From the NCBI GenBank assembly GCA_001603275.1, contig LUYM01000005.1, forward strand, positions 1-44,112: DNA of 44,112 nt. The letters run 5' to 3'. The translations under genes and the position numbers were made by a program. The notes beneath the pieces are model-generated. The model saw only the letters and a program-made list of their open reading frames with translations, was not told where the DNA came from and ran no database searches. This DNA comes from Actinomycetales bacterium Actino_02. GTDB lineage: Bacteria > Actinomycetota > Actinomycetes > Propionibacteriales > Propionibacteriaceae. Positions 15,680 to 38,501 of the stretch are shown here, in pieces (within the stretch, counting starts at the first letter, position 1; every line of letters begins with the position of its first letter).

Positions 15680-17785
15680 TCAGCCGGTGCGTCCGTCCGG
15701 GCCGCAGAGGGCGTTCAGGGCGGCCACGGTGACCGCGCTGCCGCCGCGGCGTCCGTGGACGACCAGGTACTCCAAGCCGAGTTCGTTGGCGGCCAGGGCC
15801 TGCTTGGATTCGGCTGCGCCGACGAAGCCGACCGGGATGCCGAGCACCGCGGCCGGGGCCAGGGCCGGCTCGGCGGCGACCACTTCGAGCAGGTGGAACA
15901 GCGCGGTCGGGGCGTTGCCGATGGCGACCACGGCCCCGGGCAGCAAGGGGCGCCACAGCTCGACGGCCGCAGCGGTCTTGGTGGTGCCCAGCTCGGCGGC
16001 CAGGGCGTCCAGCCGCGGATCTCCGAGCAGGCAGAGCACCTGGTTGTCGCGCGGCAGCCGAGACCGGATCACGCCGCTGGCCACCATCTTCGAATCGCAC
16101 AGGATCGGGGCGCCGGCCCGCAGGGCTGCGGTGGCGGCGTCCGCGAAGCCGTCCGACCAGGCCAAGTCGTCGACCAGGTCCGGCTGACCGGATGCGTGCA
16201 CCATTCGGATCGCGGCCGCCCGCAGCCCGTCCGGCACCCGGCTCAGGTCGGTCTCCGCCTCGATGATGGCGAACGACTGCCGGTAGATCTCCGCCCCGTC
16301 CCGCAAGTACTCCTTCGTCCCCCCCATCACGGGGACGGTTCCATTACCGTCCACTGAGGTATCCGGGTCGGCGGCGGCGGTCTCGTCCATCGCGGGACGC
16401 AGGTCCGCAGAAGAGGGGACTGTCCCCCTTTCTGCAGTGTCGTGGTCCATCGCGGGAAGGCGATCGGTCGGCTGGACGGTAATGGAACCGTCCCCGCATC
16501 TTGTGCTGACAGGGGTGGACGGTAATGGAACCGTCCCCGAGGACCAGGCGGCGACGAGGTGGTCGCGGACGGCGCGGGAGCGGCGCGGATCGCCGCCGGC
16601 CAGGACGGCCACCGACAGGCCGTCGATGGTGGCGGTGGCCGGAGTCCAGGCCGAGCCCTGGTCGGCCCGGTCGGCGCGGACGCAGAAGGTGTGCCGGGCC
16701 TCGGCGGCCGCAGCCACCTGCGCATTGGTCTCCGGGTCGTCGGTAGCGGCCAGGACGTACCAGGCGCCGTCCAGATCGGACTCCAGGAAGGTGCGCTCGC
16801 GCCAGCCGATCTTCCCGGCCTCGGCCAGCGCGGCCAGCGCCGGATGCAGTTCGGGGGCGATCACAGTCACCTCGGCCCCGGCTGCCAGCAGCTTCGGCAC
16901 CCGGCGCCGGTTCACGCAGCCGCCACCGACCGCCACGACCTTGCGTCCGGTCAACAGCAGGCCGCTCAGATAGGCCGACGAACCGGCCTCGGCACGCAGC
17001 TTCAGGACGCCCTCCCGGTAGCGCTGGACGACCACCTCGGCCAGCTCGGTGCAGGCCCCGATCACGTCGGCTACCCGCACTTCGATCTCGGGATGGGCGG
17101 CCACGAACTCGGCGGTCTGCTGGTGCACCCACTGGTCGAGCCGTCCGGTGAACAGGAAGTGCGGCATCACCACGATCCGCCGGCTGCCGCTCGCTGCGGC
17201 CTGGGCCAGCGCCTCGGGCAGCGACGGCCGAGCCACCTGGATAAACGCCGCGGCCACCTGCCGATAGCCGCCGGCCTCGAACAGCAGCCGGGTCAGCCGG
17301 ACGTGGTCGGCATTGGTCTCGGCGATGCTGCAGCCGCGCCCGACCAGGATCACGTCGGTATCGTCCGCCGCCCACTCACCGCGGGCTGCGTCGATCCGCT
17401 GCCGGACCGCAGCCAGCAAGGCCTTCGGTGAGCCCAGGTGCCGGGTGTAGGCCACGGCGGCATCCGGCTGAGTGGCCTGGGCGTCGGCGATCGCCTCGGG
17501 GATGTCGTCGCGGACGTGGCCGCCACTGCCGATCATCAGCGGCACCACCACGGCCCGGCCATGCTCGGCCAGCAGCGGGGCCAGCGCGTCCGCGATCGGC
17601 GGCTCGGTGAGCTCGACGAAGCCGGCTTCGACCTGGACGTCCGGTAACAACGCCTGCACCCGGGCCACCAACTCCGCGGCTTGGGCCGCCCCGGCGGCCA
17701 CCCGGGTGCCGTGGCCGGCGATCACCAGCGGCGGGGTGGCCGCGGCGGGCGCGGAAGGGGTGGGCGACAGGTTCGGGTGGCTCAT
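15680..17785 (-). CDS. cbiX-cysG-cobH: three-domain fusion: CbiX cobaltochelatase, CysG-type precorrin-2 dehydrogenase, precorrin-8X methylmutase (CobH/CbiC)
   Basis: The 701-residue reading frame joins three enzymes. Residues 1-265: sirohydrochlorin chelatase of the long CbiX type with two half-domains, including GHGTR, MIGSGGHVRDD and MPHFLFTGRLDQW histidines. Residues about 270-410: NAD-dependent precorrin-2 dehydrogenase, with GRKVVAVGGGCVNRRRV and VLAATDDPETN. Residues about 488-701: precorrin-8X methylmutase, with YLRDGAEIYRQSFAII and SKMVASGVIRSRL. These would convert precorrin-2 to cobalt-factor II and later move the C11 methyl to C12. The 75-residue linker (412-487) is encoded by DNA carrying three copies of the dispersed palindromic repeat plus a GGGGACTGTCCCC palindrome, all in frame. 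An internal ATG at 16327 could start a separate CobH but lacks a clear ribosome site. Its ATG overlaps the cbiEGH stop. Confidence 0.88.
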   Translation of the reverse strand: MSHPNLSPTPSAPAAATPPLVIAGHGTRVAAGAAQAAELVARVQALLPDVQVEAGFVELTEPPIADALAPLLAEHGRAVVVPLMIGSGGHVRDDIPEAIADAQATQPDAAVAYTRHLGSPKALLAAVRQRIDAARGEWAADDTDVILVGRGCSIAETNADHVRLTRLLFEAGGYRQVAAAFIQVARPSLPEALAQAAASGSRRIVVMPHFLFTGRLDQWVHQQTAEFVAAHPEIEVRVADVIGACTELAEVVVQRYREGVLKLRAEAGSSAYLSGLLLTGRKVVAVGGGCVNRRRVPKLLAAGAEVTVIAPELHPALAALAEAGKIGWRERTFLESDLDGAWYVLAATDDPETNAQVAAAAEARHTFCVRADRADQGSAWTPATATIDGLSVAVLAGGDPRRSRAVRDHLVAAWSSGTVPLPSTPVSTRCGDGSITVQPTDRLPAMDHDTAERGTVPSSADLRPAMDETAAADPDTSVDGNGTVPVMGGTKEYLRDGAEIYRQSFAIIEAETDLSRVPDGLRAAAIRMVHASGQPDLVDDLAWSDGFADAATAALRAGAPILCDSKMVASGVIRSRLPRDNQVLCLLGDPRLDALAAELGTTKTAAAVELWRPLLPGAVVAIGNAPTALFHLLEVVAAEPALAPAAVLGIPVGFVGAAESKQALAANELGLEYLVVHGRRGGSAVTVAALNALCGPDGRTG
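16331..16352. repeat. dispersed palindromic repeat inside coding linker
   Basis: One plus-orientation copy of the repeat with core GGACGGTTCCATTACCGTCC (7-bp arms, 6-nt loop). It lies inside the cbiX-cysG-cobH frame, immediately before the CobH domain. Confidence 0.9.
16415..16427. repeat. GGGGACTGTCCCC palindrome in coding linker
   Basis: A 13-bp perfect palindrome (6-bp arms around one base) that recurs at 34355-34367. It is found near the longer palindromic repeats in both places, so the two motifs probably belong to one repeat family. Confidence 0.75.
16474..16538. repeat. two further dispersed palindromes in coding linker
   Basis: Two minus-orientation copies of the core palindrome, at 16474-16495 and 16517-16538, starting 43 bp apart. 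The 43-bp spacing equals the period of the tandem array at 22143-22250. Both are translated as part of the fusion linker. Confidence 0.9.
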
Positions 17786-21794: not shown

Positions 21795-21930
21795 GATGTG
21801 TTGCTCGGCAGCGAGGCGAGTTCCTGGCTCCCGGAATCGCTTCCGGTCACAGTGGCGGGACCGCCCCGGACTCGCCCTTTCGGGGCTCACCGGAGTTCCT
21901 GCGCTGATCGCTGCGGGGCTCAGTCTGGCA
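21795..21930 (-). promoter_or_regulatory. cobalamin (B12) riboswitch upstream of cobI
   Basis: Read on the minus strand, the leader contains CAGGAACTCCGGTGAG, then GAGTCC, GGCGGTCCCGCCACTGTG, then the B12 box GAGCCAGGAACTCGCC. This is the order and spacing of the cobalamin riboswitch core. It ends close to the cobI ribosome site. Binding of adenosylcobalamin would be expected to repress cobI and, through coupling, the genes below it. The 5' boundary is approximate. Confidence 0.93.
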
Positions 21931-22016
21931 CACTCGGCGGGGTCGGATTGACCAGTGGCGAGATGCTGACCGCGTCCCCATCGCAGAGCGCCGGTGTTTC
22001 GGACGGGAGTCTTGTC

Positions 22017-22128
22017 GCCGGGTCGGGGAGCCTGCTCTCGAACTCCGTGGCTGGGTTCGGTGGTCGGGTATTGCGGGGTGGGGTGCGGGTTTTCCTTTAG
22101 GTTCTTCGAACGGTCTCCCCGTCCCGGC
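22017..22128. repeat. 112-bp hairpin element, copy 1
   Basis: The element begins GCCGGGTCGGGGAG and ends CTCCCCGTCCCGGC, so its ends are inverted repeats; here the left arm has drifted inside. The middle contains CGAACTCCGTGG and TTCCTTTAGGTTCTTCGAA, conserved in all four copies. With flanks, 22004-22131 repeats at 22273-22400 with only two differences. It lies just upstream of the cobI riboswitch. Confidence 0.9.
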
Positions 22129-22142
22129 TTCCGCGGTCTGGT

Positions 22143-22271
22143 GGGGACGGTTCCATTACCGTCCAGGCCTGTCATCGCGATTCGTGGGGACGGTTCCATT
22201 ACCGTCCAGGCCTGTCATCGCGATTCGTGGGGACGGTTCCATTACCGTCCGGCCTGGTCAGCGGGGTGCTG
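22143..22271. repeat. 43-bp tandem array of palindromic repeats
   Basis: The core palindrome occurs at 22143-22164, 22186-22207 and 22229-22250, exactly 43 bp apart, with identical 21-bp spacers between the first two pairs. The third unit decays into GGCCTGGTCAGC, a follower also seen near 35115. It is flanked on both sides by copies of the 112-bp element. Confidence 0.92.
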
Positions 22272-22285
22272 GCGGGAGTCTTGTC

Positions 22286-22397
22286 GCCGGGTCGGGGAGA
22301 CTGCTCTCGAACTCCGTGGCTGGGTTCGGTGGTCGGGTATTGCGGGGTGGGGTGCGGGTTTTCCTTTAGGTTCTTCGAACGGTCTCCCCGACCCGGC
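22286..22397. repeat. 112-bp hairpin element, copy 2
   Basis: Almost identical to copy 1, 269 bp away. The similarity with copy 4 continues past the right end, through TTGTTCGCCGAGT and CGACCTGGG (to about 22428), up to the cobD leader. The closeness of copies 1 and 2 suggests a recent local duplication. Confidence 0.9.
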
Positions 22398-22459
22398 TTC
22401 CTTTGTTCGCCGAGTACCACGACCTGGGGAAGGCGATGGGCGAGAGTGAAGGAGTGGGC

Positions 22460-23413: not shown

Positions 23414-24147
23414 GAGTGCTGCTGCTTGGCGGCACAGCCGAGGCCCGCGAGCTGGCCGCGGAGCTGGGCGAGCACGAGGTGATCGTCTCTCTGGCCGGAG
23501 CCCTCTCGGCTCCTCACCCGGTGGTCGGGGAGGTCCGCTTTGGCGGCTTTGGCGGCGCGGACGGCCTGGCCGACTACCTGCGTGCGCACGCCGTCGAGGC
23601 CGTGATCGATGCCACCCACCCGTTCGCGTCCCGGATCAGCGGCAACGCGGCGCTGGCGTGCGCGAGGACGTCCATCCCGTTGCTGCGGCTGGAGCGACCG
23701 AGCTGGGCCGAGCGGGAAGATGCGTCCAGCTGGCATTGGGTCGACGACCTGGCTGCGGCCCGGGTGCGCGCCGAGGAGTTGGGCAGTCGAATCCTGCTGG
23801 CGGTCGGACGACAGTCGCTGACCGCTTTTGACGGCTGGCGACCGGGGCTGGTGGTGGCCCGCGCCATCGAGCCGCCCGCCTTCACGCTCCCGGACGGCTG
23901 GCTGCTGGTCCGTGGCCGCGGCCCGTTCGCGCTCGCCGACGAATTGGCGCTGCTGCGCGAGCACCGGATCGAGGTGCTGGCCGCCAAGGACTCCGGCGGG
24001 CCGACCACGGCCAAGCTGGACGCCGCAGCCGAACTCGGCGTGGCCCTGGTGATGGTGCGCCGTCCACCGGCCCCGGACGGGGTGGCCGCGGTGGCGTCCG
24101 TGGCTGAGGCGCAGCGGTGGCTGGCTCAGACCCGGCGCAGCAGGTAG
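23410..24147 (+). CDS. cobK: precorrin-6A reductase (CobK/CbiJ)
   Basis: CobK reduces precorrin-6A (or the cobalt form) with NADPH. The 245-residue protein starts MRVLLLGGTAEARELAA, a Rossmann-like nucleotide site, and includes VIDATHPFASRISGNA and LLRLERPSW, both characteristic of CobK/CbiJ, and AKDSGGPTTAKLDAA near the C-terminus. The ATG overlaps the cobD stop (ATGA). Its 3' end overlaps the end of the convergent cobF by 22 bp, so the two coding regions share their last codons in opposite directions. Confidence 0.95.
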   Translation: MRVLLLGGTAEARELAAELGEHEVIVSLAGALSAPHPVVGEVRFGGFGGADGLADYLRAHAVEAVIDATHPFASRISGNAALACARTSIPLLRLERPSWAEREDASSWHWVDDLAAARVRAEELGSRILLAVGRQSLTAFDGWRPGLVVARAIEPPAFTLPDGWLLVRGRGPFALADELALLREHRIEVLAAKDSGGPTTAKLDAAAELGVALVMVRRPPAPDGVAAVASVAEAQRWLAQTRRSR

Positions 24148-24881: not shown

Positions 24882-24969
24882 CGGGTCACGCTATCGCGAG
24901 CCCGTCCGTCCGCCCCACTCCGGGCTCTGGTCCTCGCCTCGCTACGTCTGGTTCGAGCCGCTACGCGAG

Positions 24970-25155
24970 CTCGGGTAGCGAGGCGCATCTCGGGTAGCGA
25001 GGCGCGGGGAGGGTGGCGAGGGGAGGGTGGCGCGGTGGGGACGGCTTCGCTACCGGTTGGGCTGCTTCGCTACCGCTGGATGGGTAGCGAAGCAGGGGGA
25101 CGGGTAGCGAAGCCGACGGGATGGGTAGCGAAGCAGTGGGACGGGTAGCGAAGCG
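24970..25155. repeat. array of GGGTAGCGAAGC motifs with inverted copies
   Basis: Four plus-strand copies of GGGTAGCGAAGC start at 25082, 25102, 25123 and 25143, 20-21 bp apart. Two inverted copies (GCTTCGCTACC) start at 25044 and 25064, and two variants GGGTAGCGAGGC at 24973 and 24992. The array fills the gap between cobF and cobB-cobC, which are transcribed in the same direction. Confidence 0.9.
25062..25095. terminator. perfect 13-bp hairpin within the motif array
   Basis: CTGCTTCGCTACC at 25062-25074 and its exact complement at 25083-25095 enclose an 8-nt loop. It lies downstream of cobB-cobC and could end or attenuate transcription before cobF. There is no T-run, so a terminator role is a guess. 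Confidence 0.4.
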
Positions 25156-28288: not shown

Positions 28289-28876
28289 ATGGACGACCAG
28301 CCCGCCGACCGCCGCCAGCTCAGCGCCGGGCTCCCCGACGAGGAGTTCGCCACCGACGGGCTGCTCACCAAGCGCGCGGTGCGCGCCTACGCCCTGGCCA
28401 TGCTCGCCCCGCGGGCCGGCGAACTGCTGTGGGATCTCGGCGCGGGCACCGGCTCGATCAGCATCGAGTGGTGCCGGCTGCACTCGTCCAACCGGGCCAT
28501 CGCCGTCGAGCGGGACACCGAACGGGCCGAGCGGATCGGCGCCAACGCCGTCCGCTTCGGCGTGGCCGGGCAGCTGGACATCCGGGTGTCGGCCATCGAC
28601 GCCGAACTGGCCGCCCTGCCCGCACCGTCCGCCGTCTTCATCGGCGGCGGGGTGACCGCCGAAACTCTCGAGCACTGCTGGCAGCGATTGAGTAGCGGCG
28701 GACGCCTGGTCGCCCACGGGGTCACCGCCGAGACCGAGGCCGTGCTGGCCCAGGTCTACCGCGAACACGGCGGCGAACTGGCCCGGATCGGGGTCGAGCT
28801 GGCCGAGCCGATCGGACGCTTCACCGGCTTTCGTCCGCTGCGCACCGTGACCAGTTGGGCCGGCACGAAGGACTGA
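28289..28876 (+). CDS. cbiT: precorrin-6B C15-methyltransferase, decarboxylating (CbiT)
   Basis: CbiT methylates C15 and decarboxylates the C12 acetate side chain. The 195-residue protein shows the N-terminal LPDEEFATDGLLTKRAVRA, the SAM-binding WDLGAGTGSISIEW and AVERDTERAERIGANAVRFG, and FIGGGVTAETLEHCW, all typical of CbiT or the C-terminal half of CobL. Here it is separate from CbiE, which is fused to CbiG and CbiH. The ATG at 28289 begins MDDQPADRRQL; an upstream TTG would add ten residues and is not supported. It is divergent from cobO and lies upstream of the riboswitch-controlled cobalt transporter genes. Confidence 0.94.
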   Translation: MDDQPADRRQLSAGLPDEEFATDGLLTKRAVRAYALAMLAPRAGELLWDLGAGTGSISIEWCRLHSSNRAIAVERDTERAERIGANAVRFGVAGQLDIRVSAIDAELAALPAPSAVFIGGGVTAETLEHCWQRLSSGGRLVAHGVTAETEAVLAQVYREHGGELARIGVELAEPIGRFTGFRPLRTVTSWAGTKD

Positions 28877-28924
28877 CCCGGCTGGCGCCATCCCAGAACT
28901 GGGCAATCGTGCGTAGTCAGCGCG

Positions 28925-29050
28925 AATCATGCCAGGATGGCGGAGTCGTCCACGAACGGAACCCGGTGCGAATCCGGGACGGTCGGGCCACTGTGACCTC
29001 AGCGATGGGGGAGTCAGATACGCGCGTGGACGGAACGTTCCTTAGGCCAC
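28925..29050 (+). promoter_or_regulatory. cobalamin (B12) riboswitch upstream of cbiM
   Basis: The plus-strand leader has GGAACCCGGTGCGAATCCGG, then GACGGTCGGGCCACTGTGACC, then a B12-box-like GGGGGAGTCAGATACGC, the order of the cobalamin riboswitch core. A possible expression hairpin follows (CGTGG about 29025 pairing with CCACG about 29047), just before the AAAGGGAA ribosome site of cbiM. It would lower cobalt uptake when B12 is plentiful. Ends are approximate. Confidence 0.9.
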
Positions 29051-33127: not shown

Positions 33128-33204
33128 CTGCGCATCCTCCCACGACCAGCCGGACGCCCCGTCCGGACGCCATTCGTACCAGCCAACCAACCAAGGAGAA
33201 CCCG

Positions 33205-34245
33205 ATGAGTCCGATCGTCCGCACGCCGGTCCAGGCGCCGAGCAATGCCGCCTATGCCGCCGCCCGTCAGCTCAGCGACGGCCAGGCCAAACCGCTGGGC
33301 GCCCTCGGCGACCTGGAGAGCTTGGCCGCCTGGGTGGCCGCCTGCCAGGGAGTGTGCCCGCCGCGGCAGCTGGACGACGTGCGGGTGGTGGTGTTCGCCG
33401 GCGACCACGGCGTCGCCGCCGATCAGGTGTCGGCCTACCCGGCAGCGATCACGGTGGCCATGGTGTACGGCATCGCCGGCGGCCACGCCGGGGTGTCGGC
33501 GCTGGCCGCGGCCAATGGGGTGCGGGTGTCGGTCTACGACCTGGGAGTGGCCGCCGACTTCCCCGACCTGCCGGCCGAGGTCTCCCGGTTCAAGGTGCGC
33601 GCCTCGTCCGGGCCGATCCAGCTGACCGACGCGCTGAGCATCGAAGAGGTCGAACAGGCGCTGGCCGCCGGTGACCAGATCGCCGCCGAGCAGATCGCCG
33701 ACGGCGCGCAGCTGCTGATCGCCGGTGACCTGGGGATCGGCAACACCACCATCTCAGCTGCGCTGATCGCGGCAAGCCTGGGCCTGAGCGCGTCCGCGGT
33801 GACCGGACGGGGCACCGGGATCGACGACGGCACCTTGGCTCACAAGACGGCGCTGATCGACGCCGCGCTGGCTCGGGCCGGTCAGCGGGTGGCCGACCCG
33901 GTGCAGCGGCTGGCCGCGCTAGGCGCCGCCGACTTCGCCGCTGCCGTGGGCTTCATCAGCGGGGCTGCCCGGCGCGGCGTCCCGGTGCTGGTGGACGGGG
34001 CGATCGCCGCCGCCGAAGCGCTGGTGGCTGAGGATTATGCGCCGGGCACCAAGGCCTGGCTGTGGGCCGGGCATCGCTCCACCGAACCGGGTCAGGCGCT
34101 GGCGCTGGACCGGCTCGGGTTGCGCCCGCTGGTCGATCTGTCGATGCGGCTGGGCGAAGGCAGCGGCGCCGTGGTTGCCGTGCCGATCGTCCGCGCCGCA
34201 GTGGCCGCCCTGACCGGCATCGCCCAGCTCGCCGACCTGACCTAG
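33205..34245 (+). CDS. cobT: nicotinate-nucleotide--dimethylbenzimidazole phosphoribosyltransferase
   Basis: CobT activates the lower-ligand base by transferring phosphoribose from nicotinate mononucleotide, forming alpha-ribazole phosphate. The 346-residue protein shows QLSDGQAKPLGALGDLE, VVVFAGDHGVAADQVSAYP, AGDLGIGNTTISAAL, TGRGTGIDD and the catalytic glutamate region MRLGEGSGAVV, all standard. An AAGGAG site lies seven bases before the ATG. It is divergent from cobQ. Downstream, from 34262, lie dispersed palindromic repeats. The base used (dimethylbenzimidazole or another) cannot be told from the sequence. Confidence 0.97.
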   Translation: MSPIVRTPVQAPSNAAYAAARQLSDGQAKPLGALGDLESLAAWVAACQGVCPPRQLDDVRVVVFAGDHGVAADQVSAYPAAITVAMVYGIAGGHAGVSALAAANGVRVSVYDLGVAADFPDLPAEVSRFKVRASSGPIQLTDALSIEEVEQALAAGDQIAAEQIADGAQLLIAGDLGIGNTTISAALIAASLGLSASAVTGRGTGIDDGTLAHKTALIDAALARAGQRVADPVQRLAALGAADFAAAVGFISGAARRGVPVLVDGAIAAAEALVAEDYAPGTKAWLWAGHRSTEPGQALALDRLGLRPLVDLSMRLGEGSGAVVAVPIVRAAVAALTGIAQLADLT

Positions 34246-34261
34246 GTCCGCCGGGACGAAA

Positions 34262-34367
34262 GGGGACGGTTCCTGTTACGTCCCAAGATCTCTCCCGGTG
34301 TGACGAATGTGACGAATGGGGACGGTTCCTTTTTCGTCCGTGGCTCACCGAAAAGGGGACTGTCCCC
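34262..34367. repeat. cluster of dispersed palindrome variants
   Basis: Variants of the palindrome family lie at 34262-34283 (core GGACGGTTCCTGTTACGTCC) and 34318-34339 (core GGACGGTTCCTTTTTCGTCC), with the GGGGACTGTCCCC form at 34355-34367. Arms are shorter here (GGACG/CGTCC). They fill most of the 276-bp gap between cobT and the small ferredoxin-like gene. Confidence 0.85.
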
Positions 34368-34521
34368 TTCTCTGTGAGCGGGCAGTCCCGTCCCGGCGAT
34401 GGATGGACGCCGGGGTGCCCGCTCGGCTCCGTCGCCCGTAGGCTCAGCAGGACGGGAGTGAAATCGCCGGCCTCGGTGTTATCGCCGATGTTCGACACCA
34501 GCGACCAGGAGGGTGGAGAAG

Positions 34522-35046: not shown

Positions 35047-35112
35047 GGGGACGGTTCCATTACCGTCCGCCCTTTTTCAGCGGGTTTGGTGGGGACGGTT
35101 CCATTTCCGTCC
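35047..35112. repeat. two dispersed palindromes downstream of the acetyltransferase
   Basis: Copies at 35047-35068 (core ending ATTACCGTCC) and 35091-35112 (core ending ATTTCCGTCC), starting 44 bp apart. The second is a one-base variant. They lead into copy 3 of the 112-bp element. Confidence 0.9.
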
Positions 35113-35148
35113 GGTCTGGTCAGCGGGTTTGGTGGCCGGAGTGTTGTC

Positions 35149-35259
35149 GCCGGGTCGGGGAGACCGTTCTCGAACTCCGTGGCCGGGTTCGGCGTTGGGT
35201 GCGGTCGGGTCCGGCTTGGGTCTTCCTTTAGGTTCTTCGAACGGTCTCCCCGTCCCGGC
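35149..35259. repeat. 112-bp hairpin element, copy 3
   Basis: The best-preserved copy: the left end GCCGGGTCGGGGAGACCGTT is complementary to the right end, apart from one base (a T in GTCCCGG), giving arms of about 21 bp. The central loop differs in sequence from copies 1 and 2 but keeps CGAACTCCGTGG and CCTTTAGGTTCTTCGAA. Confidence 0.9.
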
Positions 35260-35268
35260 TCTCTTGGT

Positions 35269-35333
35269 GGGGACGGTTCCATTTCCGTCCGCACTGGTCA
35301 GCACGATTCGTGGGGACGGTTCCATTACCGTCC
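35269..35333. repeat. two dispersed palindromes between hairpin copies 3 and 4
   Basis: Copies at 35269-35290 and 35312-35333, again 43 bp apart. The spacer between them (GCACTGGTCAGCACGATTCG plus one base) is related to the spacer of the array at 22143-22250. Confidence 0.9.
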
Positions 35334-35373
35334 ACGATTCGCCGACTTCCTCTGCCTGGGTGGGGGTGTTCTC

Positions 35374-35485
35374 GCCGGGTCGGGGAGACCATTCTCGAAC
35401 TCCGTGCTCGGGTTCGGCGGCTGGGTGCTGCTGGGTGGGGTTCGGGTTCTCCTTTAGGTTCTTCGAACGGTCTCCCCGGCCCGGC
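35374..35485. repeat. 112-bp hairpin element, copy 4
   Basis: Same ends and conserved motifs as the other copies, with a different central loop. The right flank (TTGTTCGCCGAGT, CGACCTGGG, to about 35514) matches the right flank of copy 2 before cobD, so the repeated unit is longer than the hairpin alone. Confidence 0.9.
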
Positions 35486-35580
35486 TCTCTTGTTCGCCGA
35501 GTGCCGCGACCTGGGTACAGGCGTTCGATGAGAACGGACGCGGTCGGTCTAGGTCGCCGAGCAGTGGCAAGGTGAAGGAC

Positions 35581-36846: not shown

Positions 36847-36864
36847 CCTCGCCCTGGGATGAAA

Positions 36865-36924
36865 GGGGACGGTTCCTGTTACGTCCCATCGCCGGTCTCT
36901 TGGGACGTAACAGGAACCGTCCCC
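36865..36924. terminator. 23-bp inverted repeat built from two palindromic repeats, between convergent genes
   Basis: A repeat copy at 36865-36887 (GGGGACGGTTCC to ACGTCCC) and its exact inverse at 36902-36924 enclose a 14-nt loop. The long hairpin sits between the ends of the MFS gene and crcB, where a bidirectional terminator is expected. There is no T-run, so the terminator role is inferred from placement and strength of the stem. Confidence 0.6.
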
Positions 36925-38309: not shown

Positions 38310-38501
38310 GTCGACCTCCTGTCCGGGCGCGCACGCCCGCAACGACGCACAGGAACCATCAGCCGGACGGCGGTTCGGGCGAGCCCCGGTGGGATCCATC
38401 ACCGGCGACCACGATAGCCGCCGAGTGGCTCGTCGCCCGGATTCGTCCGGACGTGACAGGCTGGGCTCGCGGACGATCCGGCCAGCGGCAAGGAGATGCA
38501 G

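Follow-up and report, generated by a model that had tools for sequence, protein, structure and literature searches.

Two ancestral genes, cysG and cobH, have very probably been joined by the insertion of palindromic repeats, giving one open reading frame and most likely one polypeptide, to judge from the sequence of the locus and of its relatives. The frame lies in the 44,112-nt stretch of contig LUYM01000005.1 analysed here (hereafter the window). An earlier note on this DNA had described it as a triple fusion of CbiX, CysG and CobH in 701 codons, and this was borne out by an open frame on the minus strand (ATG start, 15680-17785) and by Pfam matches to all three domains. Bacteria have many fused domains, yet the event behind a join can seldom be seen. 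In this case, defined repeat families account for much of the linker, and the likely prior state is represented by a close relative (G015).

The fused frame and its linker

In coding order, the frame runs from CbiX through the CysG precorrin-2 dehydrogenase domain and a repeat linker to CobH, with a computed product mass of 72.6 kDa. The features of the locus are as follows, in the direction of translation after the whole frame.

15680..17785, minus strand: fused open frame of 701 codons, CbiX-CysG-linker-CobH/CbiC (open frame reading, Pfam, NCBIfam)
16544..17785, minus strand: CbiX-CysG part, residues 1-414 (Pfam, comparison with G015)
16328..16543, minus strand: linker, residues 415-486; missing in the 17 relatives read
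16517..16538, minus strand: REP-A copy 1, exact, read as GTVPLPS (pattern search, frame reading)
16474..16495, minus strand: REP-A copy 2, exact, read as GDGSITV, 43 nt after copy 1 (pattern search)
16445..16457, no strand assigned: 13-nt direct repeat GTCCATCGCGGGA, second copy, flanking REP-B (read off the sequence)
16405..16437, no strand assigned: REP-B palindrome, read as TAERGTVPSSAD; 29-nt core at 16407-16435 with 2 mismatches to the search consensus
16385..16397, no strand assigned: 13-nt direct repeat GTCCATCGCGGGA, first copy, flanking REP-B (read off the sequence)
16331..16352, plus strand: REP-A copy 3, exact, read as DGNGTVP, in the opposite orientation to copies 1 and 2 (pattern search)
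16327..16330, minus strand: GTGA, perhaps what is left of an ancestral 4-nt overlap; in the fusion, the TGA that it contains (16329-16327) is out of frame
16319..16325, minus strand: run of 7 G at the join (read off the sequence)
15680..16327, minus strand: CobH (precorrin-8X methylmutase), residues 487-701 (Pfam, G015, solved structures)

Pfam placed CbiX in two stretches of the fused protein (best at residues 25-128), NAD_binding_7, which is only the precorrin-2 dehydrogenase part of CysG, at residues 278-383, and CbiC/CobH at residues 499-694. The CobH part aligned over nearly its whole length to solved precorrin-8X methylmutases (10 distinct sequences, best E value 4.7e-69). Adjoining frames on the same strand encode tetrapyrrole methylases and CbiG (Pfam), and a cobalamin riboswitch (21796-21927, minus strand) lies upstream of the fused frame on its strand. 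A scan of genome contigs returned two loci, one with CobH and the other with CysG residues only. The source genome is a draft of 31 contigs, rated 100% complete and 0.09% contaminated, and the fusion is known from this one genome.

The linker, which the note had placed at residues 412-487, is best set at residues 415-486 (72 residues; 216 nt between Trp414 and Met487). Over half of it is repeat DNA, with ∼95 of the 216 nt in neither REP-A nor REP-B. Its layout in coding order is a head-to-tail REP-A doublet, REP-B and an inverted REP-A. REP-A is a 22-nt palindrome (GGGGACGGTTCCATTACCGTCC), and the three core palindromes described earlier in the linker proved to be three exact copies of it, each translated in a different way. 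In the window as a whole, 11 matches to REP-A at ≤3 mismatches were found versus none in 100 shuffles, far above chance. A further palindrome, GGGGACTGTCCCC, had been taken for a member of the same family, but it marks a second family, REP-B, which lies beside its own transposase gene (L032). This 13-nt core occurs in the window at 16415-16427 and 34355-34367; searched alone at ≤2 mismatches it is not over-represented (five window matches versus 3.72 expected). Within the 121 nt between REP-A copies 2 and 3, only the REP-B surroundings recur, at 20 other places. REP-B is flanked by direct repeats at another locus as well (L125, around 1522), there of ∼19 near-identical nucleotides with an ATG; such repeats may be a trace of the mode of REP-B insertion.

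Comparison with relatives

The nearest relative compared, G015, shares 92-94% of residues with the fused protein (250 of 270 in CbiX, 136 of 144 in CysG and 195 of 211 in CobH; 89% and 92% over longer matches). In relatives, G015, G018 and G027 among them, a single match already covers CbiX and CysG. At the G015 junction (GAGGTGAGCGGCTCATGACC), cysG and cobH are separate genes with no repeats between them, the cysG stop and the cobH start share the sequence ATGA, and the cobH start is preceded by GAGGTGA. The region around cysG was read in 33 other family genomes (the 30 for which loci were available among the 125 matching family genomes, plus three more in which the two genes had been seen adjacent). 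The genes were adjacent on one strand in 17 of these and on opposite strands in eight; in the other eight, no cobH lay in the stretch. Alignment of the locus in relatives had been named beforehand as a check, and its outcome was uniform: cysG and cobH are separate and the junction is free of repeats in all 17 relatives with same-strand adjacency, and it is at the repeat block that the alignment to G015 is interrupted. The overlap is exactly four nucleotides in 10 of the 17, with the start one base before the stop, and longer, 1 nt or absent in the rest. Neither REP-A, REP-B nor the 13-nt core (≤1 mismatch) was found in the 66.5 kb of stretches from these relatives. An apparent presence of repeats in three of the 17 was rejected, having come from the 13-nt core at four mismatches, which gave 8-23 matches per stretch where strict patterns gave none. 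Equal open-frame lengths had also suggested a repeat-free fusion in G068, which was rejected on the TGA at its junction. In a wider scan of 198 family genomes, 125 of which gave a match, only the window's own match spans both parts among the matches listed down to an E-value limit, with five candidates scored per genome; a fusion appearing as two matches might escape notice in such a list.

Over window positions 6577-39704, the alignment with G015 consists of eight collinear blocks at 83-93% identity. Four of the gaps between them hold repeats (16302-16550, 21963-22447, 33143-34516 and 35073-35530), and two contain no REP-A (24899-25032 and 28871-28885, with ∼1.9 kb more in G015 at the latter); that at 23763-23853 is the edge of the two G015 stretches compared. 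Since the REP-A copy at 35047-35068 falls within an aligned block, most but not all REP-A copies coincide with alignment gaps. No REP-B was found in G015 at ≤3 mismatches, and the REP-B insert in the linker is therefore probably younger than the split from G015. In another genus, CobH matches in two genomes (G110:C1:1090210-1091025 and G109:C21:5478-6293) are 77% identical to the CobH of the fusion, compared with 62% for the other copy in G110, a likeness in sequence that may point to transfer.

The lengths at the junction suggest how two genes could have become one frame. The alignment gap at 16302-16550 measures 249 nt here versus 50 nt in G015, a difference of 199 (3 × 66 + 1), and the distance from Trp414 to the ATG is 216 nt versus 29 nt, a gain of 187 that is likewise 3n+1. 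Before the insertion, the two genes would have overlapped, usually by four bases (ATGA or GTGA), as in most of the relatives read. A cluster of REP-A and REP-B would then have inserted near the 3′ end of cysG, beside cobH, and its net gain of 3n+1 would have brought translating ribosomes out of the frame of cysG and into that of cobH, bypassing the cysG stop. Because a 4-nt overlap leaves the cobH frame open across the cysG stop, a stop-free 3n+1 insert can fuse the genes without loss of that stop, and the out-of-frame TGA at 16329-16327 would be the ancestral cysG stop, still in place. The insertion would also have removed the ribosome-binding-like sequence that stands ahead of cobH in G015. 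Its product would be a single CbiX-CysG-CobH frame with a mostly repeat-encoded linker, translated most likely as a single polypeptide, which we infer to be one working protein. The rule is simple, in that overlapping genes plus a stop-poor 3n+1 insert yield a fusion, and it makes one origin of interdomain linkers testable. A broader reading is tentative and rather unlikely as a whole: that stop-poor repeats are a ready-made fusing linker at 4-nt overlaps, that they have produced a working trifunctional B12 enzyme, and that slippage in the run of seven G may switch the fusion.

Repeat families and their transposase genes

Across the genome, 207 copies of REP-A were found at ≤2 mismatches, with none for a reversed control. 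All 58 doublets listed have a period of 43-45 nt (40-47 nt searched) and mostly related spacers, and the linker doublet is one of them, with a 43-nt period. The core GGGGACTGTCCCC is the center of the longer REP-B palindrome, which has 12 distinct genome sites at ≤3 mismatches (22 matches counted over both strands), besides looser copies in the stretches read. Five of the six frames of the REP-A core are free of stops, as are all six of REP-B. The genome has two Y1_Tnp genes, L031 (262 codons) and L032 (275 codons), both above the PF01797 cutoff (56.7 and 54 bits) and both encoding an HVH sequence (HUH motif). L031 lies between REP-A repeats of opposite orientation, (+) at one flank and (−) at the other, and its protein matched the whole of NCBIfam model NF047646 (REP-associated tyrosine transposase) at 67.9 bits, below the cutoff of 80. 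L032 is bordered on both sides by REP-B, the orientation of which tells little because REP-B is a near-perfect palindrome. As REP-A flanks L031 and REP-B flanks L032, the linker holds members of both families. Each family probably owes its mobility to a Y1/HUH transposase of its own, of the RAYT/TIRYT kind, and it is these enzymes that would have moved the repeats. A search of 41 genomes found REP-A in 8 (29 copies in G015), and Y1_Tnp was present in 5 of 7; the two need not occur together, since G009 has four REP-A matches and no Y1_Tnp match.

The expectation that these repeats otherwise lie between genes was upheld in a survey of 71 repeat clusters, part of the genome's total, drawn from the window and 49 further stretches (holding those of the 100 listed REP-A places, out of 207, that lie outside the window, plus three further sites; REP-A copies beyond the 100 were read only where they fell inside these stretches). 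No coding-like frame crosses 69 of the 71 clusters. As the scan required at least 30 coding-like codons on either side, repeats at gene ends were not counted as intragenic. The two clusters in frame with coding-like sequence on both sides are the fusion linker and a site in a gene that looks like cobS from its sequence, where an exact REP-A core (L114:7916-7937) encodes the motif GTVPLPSA. As a second intragenic insert this site was rejected, because the matching segment in relatives is alike in residues and has no indel (G015 reads GTVPVPSA, and five of the seven further relatives read GSVP-), leaving it as a native motif and the linker as the only true intragenic insert found in the survey. 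The palindrome itself is present at the G015 site (L157) with two changes and is missing in the seven more distant relatives. The motif may have been overwritten by a repeat, may be the source of the REP-A family or may match it by chance. The REP-A core at L114 contains a TTA codon, which is rare (of 3,265 codons in seven frames of the window, 2 are TTA, and the linker holds one of these).

Alternative explanations

A small frame-changing event at the overlap might instead have fused the genes before repeats colonized a dispensable linker. Small indels can fuse overlapping genes, and repeats elsewhere in this genome do gather in clusters of up to seven; however, no fusion without repeats was seen in the 17 informative relatives or as a spanning match among those listed for the 198 family genomes, making this order of events unlikely. 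It is highly improbable that the fusion is an assembly or sequencing error hiding a frame break between two separate genes with a repeat cluster between them. The genome is a draft, and a slip or sequencing error in the G7 run at the join would break the fusion frame, but it is rated as complete and almost free of contamination, the REP-A copies are exact, and both flanking domains are intact and in frame. Insertion of the repeats as the fusing event is the reading that we retain, and the earlier proposals that repeats created the join and serve as protein-linker material are supported by the relatives and by G015. The proposal that they now maintain it is not, as the linker has no clear coding signature. 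Its codon score is −0.19 versus 0.37-0.41 for the domains, and a linker turned protein-like was rejected on this ground, although among the six frames of the linker the fused one ranks first (the others range from −0.28 to −0.51). Frames at other repeat clusters average −0.39 (standard deviation 0.15, 294 frames). The top rank of the fused frame is a slight hint against a linker of raw repeat only, and weak adaptation is therefore still allowed.

Openness of the linker frame was likewise rejected as proof of selection, since 112 of 414 frames (27%) are open over 208 nt at the 69 other clusters; with one phase in three suitable, ∼9% of such inserts would be open and in phase by chance, and selection is not needed to explain an open linker. 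An adaptive fusion, in which CysG and CobH channel intermediates or are held at fixed stoichiometry and selection keeps the linker open, would fit the rank of the fused frame, the existence of a bifunctional CbiX/CobH family in NCBIfam (NF004449) and the constraint on both halves relative to G015 (dN/dS by NG86 of 0.21 for CbiX, 0.15 for CysG and 0.15 for CobH), values that may reflect mostly the time before fusion. Against it stand the low codon score of the linker, the frequency of chance fusions and the position of CysG and CobH at steps that are not known to be consecutive, and we consider it very unlikely. The locus might also make two products, with the long frame incidental and CobH restarting at an internal ATG, at the GTG before it or at a TTG after it. 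The note had proposed such an ATG at 16327, and it is found exactly there, as Met487, about where CobH starts in G015; a few codons further on, AAGGAG precedes a TTG by 3 nt. However, no ribosome-binding sequence was seen by eye ahead of the ATG, the GAGGTGA of G015 being gone, and the start sits at the base of a perfect 25-bp stem that pairs REP-A copy 1 with copy 3 (predicted RNA fold, −124.7 kcal/mol; z = −7.38). No stop codon separates the parts of the fused frame, which makes the fusion protein the expected product by default, and a restart at 16327 would add to it rather than replace it unless ribosomes fall off. These sequence features disfavor a restart at the ATG, and a two-product locus appears decidedly unlikely.

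Relation to known systems

Repeats within genes are already known, and repeats that produce a gene fusion are unusual. According to the main text of PMC3733652, REPs of the GTAG and CGTC families occur inside ORFs, over half of them as dimers or groups encoding 20-30 residues; clusters encode 43-82 residues, and the authors suggest that they are tolerated in flexible linkers or loops. The repeats described here resemble these in being palindromes inside an ORF, but they join two ancestral genes rather than lying within one, and the 5′ GT(A/G)G head of the GTAG family is absent (REP-A starts with GGGGAC and REP-B with CCGCAG). None of the words fuse, fused, fusion and Actinobacteria appears in that main text. 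In the available text of PMC2817692, RAYT genes, whose GTAG repeats have the head GT(A/G)G, are flanked by two repeats in inverted orientation, and L031 with its inverted REP-A flanks has this layout. PMC3733652 also describes, in its main text, TIRtrons and TIRYT repeats: RAYT-like Y1 genes are flanked by terminal palindromes, of which some belong to dispersed families arranged as dimers or clusters, and a GGGGWSAS motif is common to some terminal repeats only. REP-B in one orientation (GGGGACAG) fits this motif, and REP-A (GGGGACGG) does so at 7 of 8 positions. The CGTC REPs of the same text have a terminal CGTC, an 8- to 9-bp stem, a loop of 4-5 nt, a CCA tail and no transposase; REP-A ends in ACCGTCC, but its copy 2 folds into a 7-bp stem with a 6-nt loop, and REP-A flanks a transposase gene.

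Rickettsia palindromic elements are ∼150 bp long and inserted within single genes, as far as the available text of PMC10969869 describes them. They share with the present repeats the placement of mobile palindromes in frame in protein genes, but here the units are 22-33 nt long, clustered and fusing two genes. As with those elements, the repeats lie in frame within a conserved gene and are absent in its orthologues, and residues encoded by them are predicted to be part of the protein. The NCBIfam family NF004449 (sirohydrochlorin cobalt chelatase/precorrin-8X methylmutase) by its name places chelatase and methylmutase on one chain, without a CysG domain; the fused protein scored 119.8 against a cutoff of 298, and the best stretch was the CobH part only. 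No repeat-made fusion of two bacterial genes was found in the titles and abstract openings listed by searches of the open-licence literature. A repeat-made gene fusion extends the known insertion of repeats into proteins, in Rickettsia and other REP-rich bacteria, to the fusion of genes.

Other features of the window

A third, related palindrome family (GGGGACGGTTCCTGTTACGTCCCA) occurs in the window at 34253-34285, 34309-34341, 36856-36888 and 36898-36924, an inverted copy included. Around REP-A clusters, a 129-nt sequence is present in four copies within 22004-22401 and 35136-35489, the others being 64-98% identical to the first. Clustered inverted repeats with GGTAGCGAAGC arms at 25042-25154 are unlike both REP-A and REP-B. 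The window also holds a second cobalamin riboswitch (28912-29043, plus strand) and a fluoride riboswitch (38343-38412, minus strand).
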